Shown here: piece after piece, positions 163-9,900 of the stretch | Layout of the letters: every line of letters starts with the position of its first letter | Position numbering within the stretch: position 1 is the stretch's first letter | Assembly: GCA_019248485.1 (NCBI GenBank) | Contig: JAEHGL010000014.1 | Coordinates: forward strand, 1-33,270 | From: Candidatus Komeilibacteria bacterium S5_K13 | GTDB taxonomy: Bacteria; Patescibacteriota; Patescibacteriia; UBA1558; S5-K13 | Direction of reading: 5' to 3' | DNA: 33,270 nucleotides | Position numbers and translations under genes: made by a program | Notes under the pieces: model-generated | What the model was told of the DNA's origin: nothing | The model's database searches: none | The model's input: the letters and a program-made list of their open reading frames with translations, nothing else

Positions 163-246
163 TTTATTACTGTGGCAAATCAACAAGGCCCAACAGTAGC
201 AACGTGTTTTTTATAAATAAACGAGTTGCAAAAAAGGGAGGATGAC

Positions 247-411
247 ATGTCATCTTTTTCGAATGGACAAATGAACCAGCTAGGTAATTCATTAGAGAGG
301 GCTGGTTTTACACCGAATGACGTCACTAAGCTTGGACAATCCAAGGAAGTTCTTGGCGGGATTTTGAAGATTCTTCGTGGTCAAGCAGAAATCAATTTTT
401 TGAACATTTGA
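247..411 (+). CDS. N-terminal part of a CPR-type putative DGR target protein
   Basis: This 54-residue ORF starts at ATG 247, chosen over the in-frame ATG at 226 because GGGAGG lies at 236-241 with correct spacing. The product contains AGFTPNDVTKLGQ and a short helical segment ending in RGQAEI, with no signal peptide or membrane helix. From memory, this is the N-terminal module of a roughly 190-200 residue family common in CPR genomes, where the module runs directly into the part encoded at 408-803. Here the frame closes at TGA 409-411, immediately after a T6G run at 396-402. A single -1 shift there would join the two frames. No biochemical function is known to me. It could also be a real stand-alone small protein translationally coupled to the next ORF. 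Confidence 0.6.
   Translation: MSSFSNGQMNQLGNSLERAGFTPNDVTKLGQSKEVLGGILKILRGQAEINFLNI
396..402 (+). other. Candidate -1 frameshift site (T TTT TTG)
   Basis: In the reading frame of the upstream ORF the codons are AAT TTT TTG, so bases 396-402 fit the X XXY YYZ slippery pattern. After a -1 slip the ribosome would continue GAA CAT TTG ATT GAC into the downstream frame. An obvious 3' stimulatory pseudoknot was not found by eye. A one-base deletion in the T run, biological or from assembly, explains it equally well. Confidence 0.4.
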
Positions 412-803
412 TTGACTGTGATGCCAAACCCTTCGTTCCAAATGGTTGGTCCGTTGAAGAGCATCAAATGAGTGGTCAATTCAGTCTCAACTCTGCCAAG
501 ATTGAATTGTATCTGTCTAGAAAGCAGGCAAAGGGTTTAATCGTTGGAAATGATTTGAGGGATAGAATTAAAGGTAGGTCAGTTCTGAACGCAAATGTTC
601 TTGACTATTTACTTGCTCATCCTGAATTAATTCCGAATAATTGGAAAGGTAAATATGTATTTTTTTGGGGTACAATTTACCGCGACTCTTATAATAATCT
701 CTCCGTTCGTTACCTCCGCTGTATTGGATCGGAATGGTGCTGTGATTACTACTGTCTAAACTGCTACTTCGACTCCGATGAGCCATGTGCTCTCGCAAGT
801 TAA
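408..803 (+). CDS. C-terminal part of the putative DGR target protein, with a variable-looking end
   Basis: This 131-residue frame opens at TTG 408, overlapping the previous stop, with no Shine-Dalgarno of its own. It probably continues the 247-411 gene through a frameshift: coding potential extends upstream of TTG as EHLIDCDAKPF, which matches the junction I remember in unsplit relatives. Central motifs are FVPNGWSVEEHQ, LNANVLDYLLAHPELIP and FFWGTIYRDS. The last 35 residues are rich in Cys, Tyr, Asp and Trp and use codons unlike the rest of the window: 13 of 14 codons at 738-779 end in C or T, and nine end in C. That is what adenine mutagenesis of AAY template codons would produce. The family role is probably ligand binding through a hypervariable C-terminus (inference). 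No reverse transcriptase, Avd or template repeat is visible in the window. Confidence 0.6.
   Translation: MIDCDAKPFVPNGWSVEEHQMSGQFSLNSAKIELYLSRKQAKGLIVGNDLRDRIKGRSVLNANVLDYLLAHPELIPNNWKGKYVFFWGTIYRDSYNNLSVRYLRCIGSEWCCDYYCLNCYFDSDEPCALAS
720..800 (+). other. Candidate DGR variable region
   Basis: From codon 720 to the codon before the stop, the sequence encodes alternating Cys, Tyr, Asp, Asn, Phe and Ser around a fixed-looking scaffold that ends in LAS. Codons are almost all NNY and often end in C, against the strong A/T third-position bias of neighbouring genes. Retrohoming from a template with AAC/AAT codons would leave this signature. The matching template repeat was searched for by eye in the window and not found. 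Confidence 0.45.
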
Positions 804-851: not shown

Positions 852-885
852 ACCTTGGTTGCTTAATGGTAGCCAAGGTTTTTTT
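852..885 (+). terminator. Intrinsic terminator after the 408-803 ORF
   Basis: ACCTTGG at 852-858 pairs with CCAAGGT at 873-879. The stem extends inward through wobble pairs to a TAAT loop, and the sequence is followed by a T7 run at 879-885. This is a well-formed Rho-independent terminator for the plus-strand gene. Confidence 0.8.
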
Positions 886-910
886 ATTTATATAAATTTT
901 TAGTATCTAA

Positions 911-1113: not shown

Positions 1114-1128
1114 AATGTGTTTTTATAT

Positions 1129-2142
1129 TTATTGAAGATCTCTTACAATCTTCAATATTTCTTCTCCCGAAAGATATTCTAGTTTTTTCCAGACTGATTC
1201 AATAGCGATTTTAGCCTCTTGTTGTCTTTTCTCAACTATTGTAATAGCTGCATATGAGAGATCGTCTATATATTTTTGTTCTTCTTGCAACTTTTTAACA
1301 TCAGATTTGATTATTACTAATCTTTTGCCTAGTTCGTTATATAAATCATTAATATCGTCATCTGACATATTTTGCAGCTCTTCTTTTGTAGGTAATGGAG
1401 AACCATTGAGCTGGAGCTGTGGTGATTCCTCGGTTTGCATTTCTAAAGACCCAACAAGGAGATTTTCTGCGGAACTTTTATCACTATTTTCCGCAGGCTT
1501 TTCTTGTCGCGTCTGATTTTCTTCGTATTCATCTTTTTTGACAAGAAACATTTTAGTCCATTCATAAATAGTCTCTCCCTTTCTCCCATCGGGCATTAAT
1601 AATTTAAATTTAATGGCAGGACGTATAACAGAATTATACAGAGATTCAAAACCATTGTATCCAAGGGGCTTATAAACTTCATCGTAGATTCTTTTCTTCT
1701 TACGATCTCCCTGGATCATTACTCTATTAATTCCAGCTCGAAATTTTCCATCAAGTGCATAAAATAGCTTTAGACACTTTTGGAATATCTTTTTTTCCTC
1801 GATTTCCTTTTCTCGTGGTTTTTCAAGCTCTGTTATTTTCTCTCTAATCCCATCTTCAAAATTTGAATAATTGATGCCATTCGGAATTTTGGTTGTCAAC
1901 GCATGTCGGGTGCCATTTTCTCCAGGCTGAGCATTTATTGTTAGTGTGCCCGTGGTTAAATTAACCGATATTAGACAAACTCTTCCTTGAAGAGTGCTTC
2001 TTCCTTTTAATTTCTTGGCGAGTATAAAGTTTAGCTCGCCATCAAGTTCAAAAGTAGAGAAAAACTCTTCTAAAAGTTCTTTCATGCCTTCTGGAATTTC
2101 CATGGTATGAGCCTTGCCGACTGTTACATTTATCTTGAGCAT
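1129..2142 (-). CDS. Unrecognised charged protein with C-terminal coiled coil
   Basis: I do not recognise this 337-residue protein. The ATG at 2142 (MLKINVTV) is preferred over the upstream in-frame ATG at 2172 because GGGGG sits 5-6 nt before it on the minus strand. The protein has no signal peptide or membrane helix and should be cytoplasmic. Residues 1-100 look like a mixed alpha/beta domain. Residues 117-205 form a Lys/Arg-rich, possibly helical domain (GDRKKKRIYDEVY) that could bind nucleic acid. Residues 206-255 are a Pro/Glu/Ser-rich linker. Residues 260-337 are heptad-like and probably coiled coil. It is the only minus-strand gene in the window and a separate unit, with its own promoter and terminator. 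It stands next to the putative DGR target, but nothing shows a functional link. Confidence 0.75.
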   Translation of the reverse strand: MLKINVTVGKAHTMEIPEGMKELLEEFFSTFELDGELNFILAKKLKGRSTLQGRVCLISVNLTTGTLTINAQPGENGTRHALTTKIPNGINYSNFEDGIREKITELEKPREKEIEEKKIFQKCLKLFYALDGKFRAGINRVMIQGDRKKKRIYDEVYKPLGYNGFESLYNSVIRPAIKFKLLMPDGRKGETIYEWTKMFLVKKDEYEENQTRQEKPAENSDKSSAENLLVGSLEMQTEESPQLQLNGSPLPTKEELQNMSDDDINDLYNELGKRLVIIKSDVKKLQEEQKYIDDLSYAAITIVEKRQQEAKIAIESVWKKLEYLSGEEILKIVRDLQ

Positions 2143-6911: not shown

Positions 6912-9900
6912 ATGATTATATTGAATAAAAATATAATATTTATGGATATTAAAATAAAAAATGATATGATAAATGATAACAAAAAAATATCTAATGTATT
7001 TAGTCTATTTATATTTTTAGCAATAGTTTTTGTTATTGCCCCTATTTTTGTTAATGCACAGGTTGATTTGGGTCAAACTCAAGAAATTGCTGCTAGCGCA
7101 GGGCTTGGTATAGAAGATAGTGAAGTTGTCATAGGAAATATTATAAAAATAGCACTAGGCTTTTTGGGGCTTGTTGGTCTTGTTATTGTAATCATTGCGG
7201 GTTTTAAATGGATGACTAGTGGCGGAAATGAAGAAAAGATAAAGAGCGCAAAGAAGATGTTACTTGCAGGTGCTGCCGGAATAGTTGTGATTTTGTTTTC
7301 ATATTTGATAGTAAATTTTATAATAACCAAAGTTCAAGAAGGAACTGGAACTCCAGGCGGACCTGGAAATCCTACAGAAACTGAAAGCTGTGATGTTGAG
7401 GGATCGTGTCATGGTTGTAATCGTGTTTGTTCCGGAGGAGAAGTTGTGTATTCAGAAATCTCTTGTGGTTGTTCCGGAGAACAAAGATTAAGAATTATTT
7501 CTTATAGTCCAAGGGGGAGCAATGTAAAATTGTGTCAGAAAGTGCAATTGGAGTTTAGTGAAAATATAAAAAGCTCAACCGTTAATTCTAATAACATAAA
7601 AGTTTATAGATGCAATACATCAGATGATTGCACGATAAATATAACAAGTCAAGGCACTGTAACGAGCTCTGAAAACATAATACAATTTTATGTAGATTCT
7701 TATGCAGAAAATACAACATATAAAGTTTTTGTTAGTCATGATGGAATTGAAGGGATCTCTGGTAAAAAATTATTAGAAGATTTTTCCTGGAATTTTAATA
7801 CAGGATCAGAAGAGGATAATGTTCCGCCAAAAGTTATTGATGTTTTTCCTGAAGGAGGCGATATTTGTCTTAAATCTCATATAAGCGCAGAGTTTTCTGA
7901 GGAAATGGATAAAATTTCTTTGCTTAATTTAGATAATTTTAGATTGTTTAAAGATAATAATACTCAAACAGATTTTACTTTTAAACACAGTGTAAATGCT
8001 AATAAGCTAATACTAAAGTCAAACAAGAACTTTGATGTTAATACGGATTATTTTCCGCTTTTAGATGGATCTAAAATAATGGATTCTTGTGGAAACAAAT
8101 TAGATGGAAACAAAAATGGAATCAGAGAGGATAGTATTGTTGATAATTATCCTACAAGTGGGCCGTCGGATGTGTGGAGATTTACAAGTGGTTTGAATGA
8201 TAAATGTGAGCCAGTTATTACGAGTGTATCTCCCGAAGAAGTTTATTATGATGGAGAAGCAATAACTATAACAGGCCAATATTTAAGTGACGCTGTCGTT
8301 GTTTTTGATAATCAAATAATAGTAGATGAATCAACAGAGCTTTGTATTGCGGGTGTGTCTGATAAATGGCCAAAAAGAATATGTAAATTAAACGATTGGA
8401 ATAGCAATAGTATTTCTTTGTATGTTCCAGCAACAGGCGGTGATTTAAATGGAATAAGAAATGGTGCTATTAAAGTACAAACAACAGAAGGTGTCGCAAG
8501 TGCAAGCGTTGCTTTAATAAGTCCTAGAATTGAGTCTGTTTCTCCAGAAGAGGGTGGGCCTGGGCAATTTGTAACAATAAACGGCTCTGGTTTTGGAAGT
8601 AGTAAAGGAAATAATGATAGAGTTGTATTAAGACCAATTTCAGAGAACACTACAGATGGAGATTTGGAACTGTCTTGCGGAATTGATAGTTGGCACGATA
8701 CTTATATAATAGTTTCTATTCCAAGTGATTTAGAATTGGGAGAATATTATTTTCAAGTCGTAAAAAAGGGTCTTCTACAAGATGAGAAATGGAGCAATAC
8801 TTATGCATTTGAAGTTGACAATTCTCTTCCCGGACCAGGTCTTTGTAGTGTATCCCCCAGCGTTGTAAAGTATAATGACGATTTTGTTGCAACTGGTGTA
8901 AGATTGGGAGATGGTTCATACAGCGTTAATGAAAGAAATGTATTGTTGGGAAGTTACTATAACTCAGTTACTTCTACTGTCATATCTTGGTCTGATCTAA
9001 GTGATGGGCAAGATACAAAAGTGACTGTTCAGACACCAAATCTTAGAAAAGGACAAGTTGGAGTGAGGGTTGTTACTCAAAAAAATGGAGTTACAAAATT
9101 TAGTAATAGTATTCCAATAAATATAGACGTAGATCCCGCAAATCAGTTTAAAATTACATATATAAGTCCTGCATCAAGTACTTTGGGCTCATATATTACA
9201 ATATATGGATCTGGCTTTGGAGATTCAAAGGGATTTTCTTCTACTGTTAAATTTAAAAACGGAGCTAGCGATGCTTGGTTTGATGGTGATTTTGCATTTC
9301 CAAGTGTTTGTTCTACTGCTTATTGGAAAGATGATAGGATAATAGTAAAGGTTCCAAGTAATTTTAATATACCAGAGGATCCAGGATACCTCAATTCTCA
9401 AGTTAAGATTATAAAAAACAAAGACACGGCAAGTCAGCAAGAAACAAATCCAGTTGCTTTTATAGTGAGAGATGGCAATCCAGCGCCTTCTATATGTTCT
9501 ATAGATCCAACAAAAGGAATAGCAGGGGATTCTATAACAGTCTACGGAGAATATTTTAACACCTTAAATAAGGCTGTGTTTAGTTACGGACAAGACGATA
9601 ATGAAGTATCTATGAGTGGTACAAATGGAAATTCAATTCAAGTCACTGTACCAGAAACAAAAACAGGTTTGCTCGCTCTTCACGGCGTTGATACTGGGTA
9701 TGGAAATACAGTGAATTTTGAATATGGTGAGAATGGTACAACTCCACCGCCTCAGACAAAGTGGGATTTTTATGGATGGCATTTTGAAACTTGCGATAAT
9801 TGTAAAATTCCTAGAGTAGTAACATCGCCTTGTGTAAATGCTTTTGCTTCACCTAGCCCAAGATCAGGATCAAAAGACGTTCCAGTTGATGCTAGACTAT

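Follow-up and report, generated by a model that had tools for sequence, protein, structure and literature searches.

A gene near the start of the window, by which we mean the whole 33,270-nucleotide stretch of DNA analyzed here from Candidatus Komeilibacteria bacterium S5_K13, belongs to a family of diversity-generating retroelement (DGR) targets from Patescibacteria, and with a probability of about 0.6 we read it as an orphaned member of that family that is no longer diversified and is now frozen. Under this reading, a DGR reverse transcriptase (RT) in an ancestral or donor genome would have copied a template repeat (TR), randomized its adenines and overwritten the 3' end of the gene with the product, with the AAY-derived codons seen today as the trace of that writing. 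Later, the gene would have parted from its template and RT, plausibly via insertion-sequence (IS) traffic and loss of the cassette, and in the present genome its tail would change by ordinary mutation only. We infer both the past writing of this copy and its frozen state, the latter because the assembled genome lacks the hypermutation machinery.

At the contig end, the window opens with one end (~100 nt) of an IS30-like element (positions 1-101). Upstream of the gene is a leader typical of the family, GGAGGATGACATG, within which a Shine-Dalgarno-like GGGAGG (237-242, plus strand) can be read and which also precedes the paralogous target of the same genome (L006). An ATG at 247 then opens a 54-codon ORF, ending in a stop at 409-411, for the N-terminal module of the target (247-411, plus strand, beginning MSSFSNGQMNQLGNSLERAGFTPNDVTKLGQ...); this module is 46-58% identical to the N-termini of relatives and is out of frame with the ORF at 408-803. 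The latter, on which the original prediction centered, has the coordinates given for it and covers no more than the 3' portion of the gene, comprising the conserved core (408-683, plus strand), where 31 of 32 family-conserved residues are kept, and a DGR-type variable region (VR; 684-800, plus strand). Module and core are separated by a 1-nt frameshift: beyond a T6 run (396-401), which a following G completes to the heptamer T TTT TTG, the core resumes in the -1 frame. In the same stretch (396-411, plus strand), the upstream stop overlaps a TTG start (408-410) as TTGA. Correspondingly, the profile (HMM) matches to this gene fall in two frames, whereas its relatives are single read-through ORFs. 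When the heptamer was considered as a site of programmed -1 frameshifting, the RNA fold downstream of it was not unusual (z 0.16). Several relatives (L036, L054, L072, and L073) are made up of the core and a short N-terminus, so the frameshift has not necessarily silenced the gene, and the core may still be produced from the TTG at 408 or via frameshifting. Beyond the gene lie a terminator-like hairpin, ACCTTGGTT...AGCCAAGGT, read from the sequence and followed by a T run (852-890, plus strand), and the zone in which the cis TR of relatives would be expected to start (1121-1200, plus strand), occupied here by an unrelated minus-strand ORF (1129-2172).

The original prediction took the end of this gene to be a DGR variable region, and this is supported by the homology of the gene to targets accompanied by TR, Avd and RT, with the tail corresponding to their VR. 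As had been claimed, 13 of the 14 codons at 738-779 (TGC TGT GAT TAC TAC TGT CTA AAC TGC TAC TTC GAC TCC GAT) are NNY, and nine of them end in C. The share of codons ending in C is 44% in the tail; it drops to 15% in the gene body and stands at 8% across the 10,209 codons of the window's long ORFs. Since both counts are reached by just one of 10,196 14-codon windows, in a tested set that contains the gene itself, the pattern is more than chance. The further claim, that the encoded residues are those reachable from AAY, holds at nine of the ten columns that match AAY codons in the template of a close relative (L016), these being the NNY codons CGC ATT TGC GAT TAC TGC TAC GAC GAT, with GAG at the tenth. 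An ordinary lectin-like protein that had acquired its codon bias by chance, with no DGR history, would agree with the lack of a TR in its own genome; against it stand the concentration of the bias in the tail and the column-by-column alignment of the gene to targets with adenine-specific TR/VR differences, and such an origin is nearly refuted.

The core has homologues at 79 loci in GTDB, almost all from Patescibacteria; the window gene has the core motif FFWGTIYR and the C-terminal VR, with ~40-63% identity over the core and a profile E-value of ~1e-65. Each locus was scanned for a sequence closely resembling its final codons, and at the 32 TR-linked loci the start of the TR follows that of the VR at a distance of 440-519 nt. 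In counts made over a fixed length, such that adenines were not favored, 522 of the 611 TR/VR mismatches at these 32 loci fall at TR adenines, which constitute 26% of the TR bases, and codon positions 1-2 hold 573 of the 611. On the 3' side of the TR, the inspected loci have a reverse-strand bAvd gene (PF22296), and in most TR-linked loci a DGR RT with GLPLGNLTSQ and YIRYADD-type motifs follows. The TR-linked loci with bAvd and RT are complete DGRs. The avd-like gene that had been anticipated downstream on the other strand is accordingly a feature of the relatives, whereas none follows the window gene. Two pairs of near-identical genes add a temporal dimension, differing at 1.0% of sites in the body versus 14.1% in the VR in one case and at 3.0% versus 17.8% in the other, with 42 of the 43 VR differences at codon positions 1-2; divergence confined almost entirely to the VR shows that the family has been active recently. 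In a poorly resolved tree of the targets, TR-linked and TR-less members are intermixed, and supported branches force at least 10 changes between the two states.

This survey also brought up several observations on other members and their RTs. Many DGR RTs of the class, among them those of G061, G065, G105, G109, G153, and G201, match the RT profile in two pieces, in some cases within one open frame, with the break at position 185-190, just before GLPLGNLTSQ; these two-piece matches suggest that an insertion into the RT, or a split of it, has recurred. At L017 there are tandem targets (7007-7534 and 7830-8396) with no TR within 8 kb, while the target L115 (G035:C12) is frameshifted though the G035 genome has a DGR RT. 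A further gene of the family, L071, lies on a contig labeled Methylocapsa sp. (PLUZ01000209.1), which is likelier to be a mis-binned patescibacterial contig.

A Patescibacteria-restricted DGR clade, clade 2, whose targets typically have no recognized domain, has been described previously (Roux et al., 2021, PMC8144416). The window gene resembles the targets of that clade in its host group, its short length without recognizable domains and its C-terminal VR, and its relatives display the same architecture of VP, TR, reverse-strand Avd, and RT. Host and architecture suggest that these relatives belong to clade 2. Unlike the clade 2 systems, the window locus has no TR, Avd or RT, and searches of the rest of its genome turned up no TR and no DGR RT.

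That genome amounts to 1.06 Mb in 133 contigs and is 99% complete. A profile built from 21 DGR RTs found none in it. The only ORF recovered by an RVT_1 search encodes an apparent fusion of NusB to a retron-like RT, which is ruled out as a DGR RT by its QGISTSP, in place of GLPLGNLTSQ, and by the DGR RT profile. This 528-aa ORF (L001:1114-2700, minus strand, on contig C65 of the window's genome, G000) combines NusB (PF01029, E 4e-35) with a retron St85-like RT (PF00078). The TR was sought by blastn and by an adenine-aware pattern of 48 bases, in which the template is permitted an A wherever the VR has another base and three mismatches are tolerated, and which recovers 33 of the 36 known TRs in TR-linked loci. 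Neither approach detected a TR in the contiguous downstream sequence, at the place where relatives have theirs, or elsewhere in the 133-contig draft. At the locus itself, searches of Pfam, NCBIfam, and PHROGs gave no significant match for the ORF at 1129-2172, and hence none to mark it as Avd, and the phage and plasmid collections yielded no protein match. Among close relatives, the genomes of L014 and L030 likewise gave no TR fitting their VRs in the stretches covered near their RTs. The description of the window gene as an active trans target, as the original prediction had it, is not supported by this genome, in which a search for both a near-copy template and an RT came back empty. With the genome in 133 draft contigs, the cassette could have been missed, and RT and TR may lie beyond the assembly.

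Targeting at a distance does occur in this family. In G010, a genome of the same order, one contig bears a cis target together with TR and RT, and a second target, located on a different contig, fits that TR with 18 adenine and two other mismatches; remote targeting is therefore real in the family. By analogy, the window gene could be a live trans target, written by an RT from a TR that is peculiar to the lineage and has codons other than Trp at three altered positions of the VR, RT and TR both being present in the cell and absent from the bin as an unassembled repeat, a plasmid, a phage, or an element of another cell. Such a situation would be in keeping with the break of the contig at an IS30-like repeat. 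It has to contend with a 99%-complete assembly devoid of a DGR RT, with the blank result from the phage and plasmid collections, and with the fact that the paralogue L006 and the window VR have no template-like third positions in common.

Five conserved residues of the VR are changed, namely three Trp to Cys (at 720, 741, and 753, all TGT), G96N, and A127C (786), so that the non-adenine scaffold of the VR, which is usually though not universally kept in the family, is not preserved here. Conserved positions are retained at 8 of 13 in the tail versus 31 of 32 in the body (Fisher p 0.005). Scaffold departures are more frequent in TR-less loci generally (mean 2.1 versus 0.9 in TR-linked loci; p 1e-4; five in the window gene), and because other TR-less relatives also depart, these changes bear on current templating and not on homology. 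The juxtaposition of an intact body and an altered tail is the main difficulty for the orphan reading: plain decay should strike body and tail alike, so the tail may stem from a different, unseen template, and one with other scaffold codons would explain the intact body better than orphaning followed by mutation. That TR scaffolds do vary is seen in the TR of G010, where TAC replaces TGG at the fourth Trp; the TGT codons here could thus be one A-to-G step from TAT. Template codons of AAT at the three Cys positions were also considered; they are possible, but would need the same two-base outcome three times, and a TAT template codon or a point mutation is simpler. Further, the high use of C-ending codons is uneroded, which speaks against a very old date for the last writing. 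The better fit of an unseen template to the intact body and the variability of TR scaffolds lead us to retain live trans targeting as an unlikely alternative that still holds an appreciable minority of the probability. The paralogue L006 (contig C66) differs from this pattern in having changes in both body and tail, and it sits on a long branch apart from the window copy in the tree.

The same alterations could be attributed to a pseudogene, the 1-nt frameshift relative to the family at the T6 run and the five scaffold departures then being nothing other than the decay of a useless gene, and G035, of the same order, offers a parallel in its own frameshifted target. We consider this improbable, given the near-complete conservation of the core at 31 of 32 positions, the TTG start overlapping the upstream stop, the four relatives that make do with the core and a short N-terminus, and the prediction that the core folds alone. 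Specifically, AlphaFold2 modeled the 131-aa product with a mean pLDDT of 97.1. The structural matches listed for the model are mostly CTLDs and weak (Z up to 4.6, Foldseek E no lower than 0.097), and a sequence search of the PDB found no match; with matches of this strength, a lectin-like fold of the core is likely, on the model, and not established. The core may constitute a compact lectin-like binding domain, the binding function being conjectured from the modeled fold.

Returning to the orphan reading, the immediate neighborhood of the gene hints at how the separation from the cassette might have come about. Bases 1-101 of the contig (C42:1-101) are repeated exactly at C2:36082-36182, C43:2-101, and C53:1-96, and a transposase fragment beside the C2 copy matches NF033563 transpos_IS30 (E 6.5e-8, 32.6 bits, which for this 91-aa fragment is below the curated cut-off of 80 bits). 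This IS30-like end is situated 146 nt upstream of the target gene, L006 on C66 lies just downstream of the end of a weakly recognized rve/IS3- or IS481-type transposase, and a 26-nt near-copy of the IS end of the window forms the beginning of the contig that carries the relative L070. IS-driven separation of target and cassette is a plausible inference. As separate observations, both DGR targets of this genome are ~250 bases or less from transposase-marked contig ends, and IS30-like ends coincide with contig breaks in G000. Orphaned targets are common: among 30 genomes of the class that are at least 90% complete and bear a clear target (E < 1e-20), the DGR RT is missing in 12, including G209, which is assembled as a single contig and bears two targets.

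Targets that lack a cassette of their own are already known from several other systems. Nanoarchaeota contain partial DGRs reduced to the target, its VR, and cis elements (PMC4372165); remote variable proteins, along with homologues of VPs, have been described in cyanobacteria (PMC7517822); and Thiohalocapsa has DGR loci that are disrupted or act in trans (PMC10907252). Like the nanoarchaeal examples, the window gene lacks its own cassette and has a VR with a history of adenine mutagenesis; unlike them, it resides in a genome without a DGR RT, whereas those genomes keep other complete DGRs. With the cyanobacterial and Thiohalocapsa loci, it shares a position away from any RT, transposons near or in the loci and the presence of some VRs with no matching TR, but those involve other protein families and genomes in which an RT is present.

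A less expected side result is the presence of family members on phages. A 41.5-kb phage contig with a terminase and a major head protein (L146; IMGVR_UViG_3300036886_000032) carries a target at 1218-1724; its record contains no DGR RT, and a scan of 40 kb found no TR. L152 and L153 were grouped with it as tailed-phage targets. A 4,975-base viral contig (L144; IMGVR_UViG_3300013137_002377) has three targets in tandem (304-777, 800-1222, and 1587-2009). Their VRs have 25 variable columns, 21 of which contain adenine and 23 of which are at codon positions 1-2, and divergence between their bodies amounts to 13-22%, third positions being the most changed class; judged from these alignments, the VR pattern looks like that expected from one shared, unseen template. 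The TR core pattern of the family was found in none of the viral contigs. It is conceivable, if rather unlikely, that the targets form a mobile pool separable from the retroelement, carried by phages and IS elements, temporarily without an RT, and rewritten in trans by a compatible DGR of the host, in which case the window copy, L144, and L146 would be examples.

These findings have a bearing on how DGRs are counted. Surveys centered on the RT are blind to stand-alone targets, and remote targets were not detectable by the method of Roux et al. (PMC8144416); with 12 of 30 target-bearing genomes having no recognizable DGR RT, such counts miss a good part of this hypervariable protein family. Whether viruses borrow the mutator of their host is a testable question prompted by the phage-borne copies, and frozen copies such as the one proposed here would provide a natural test of the fate of a variable tail once diversification stops.
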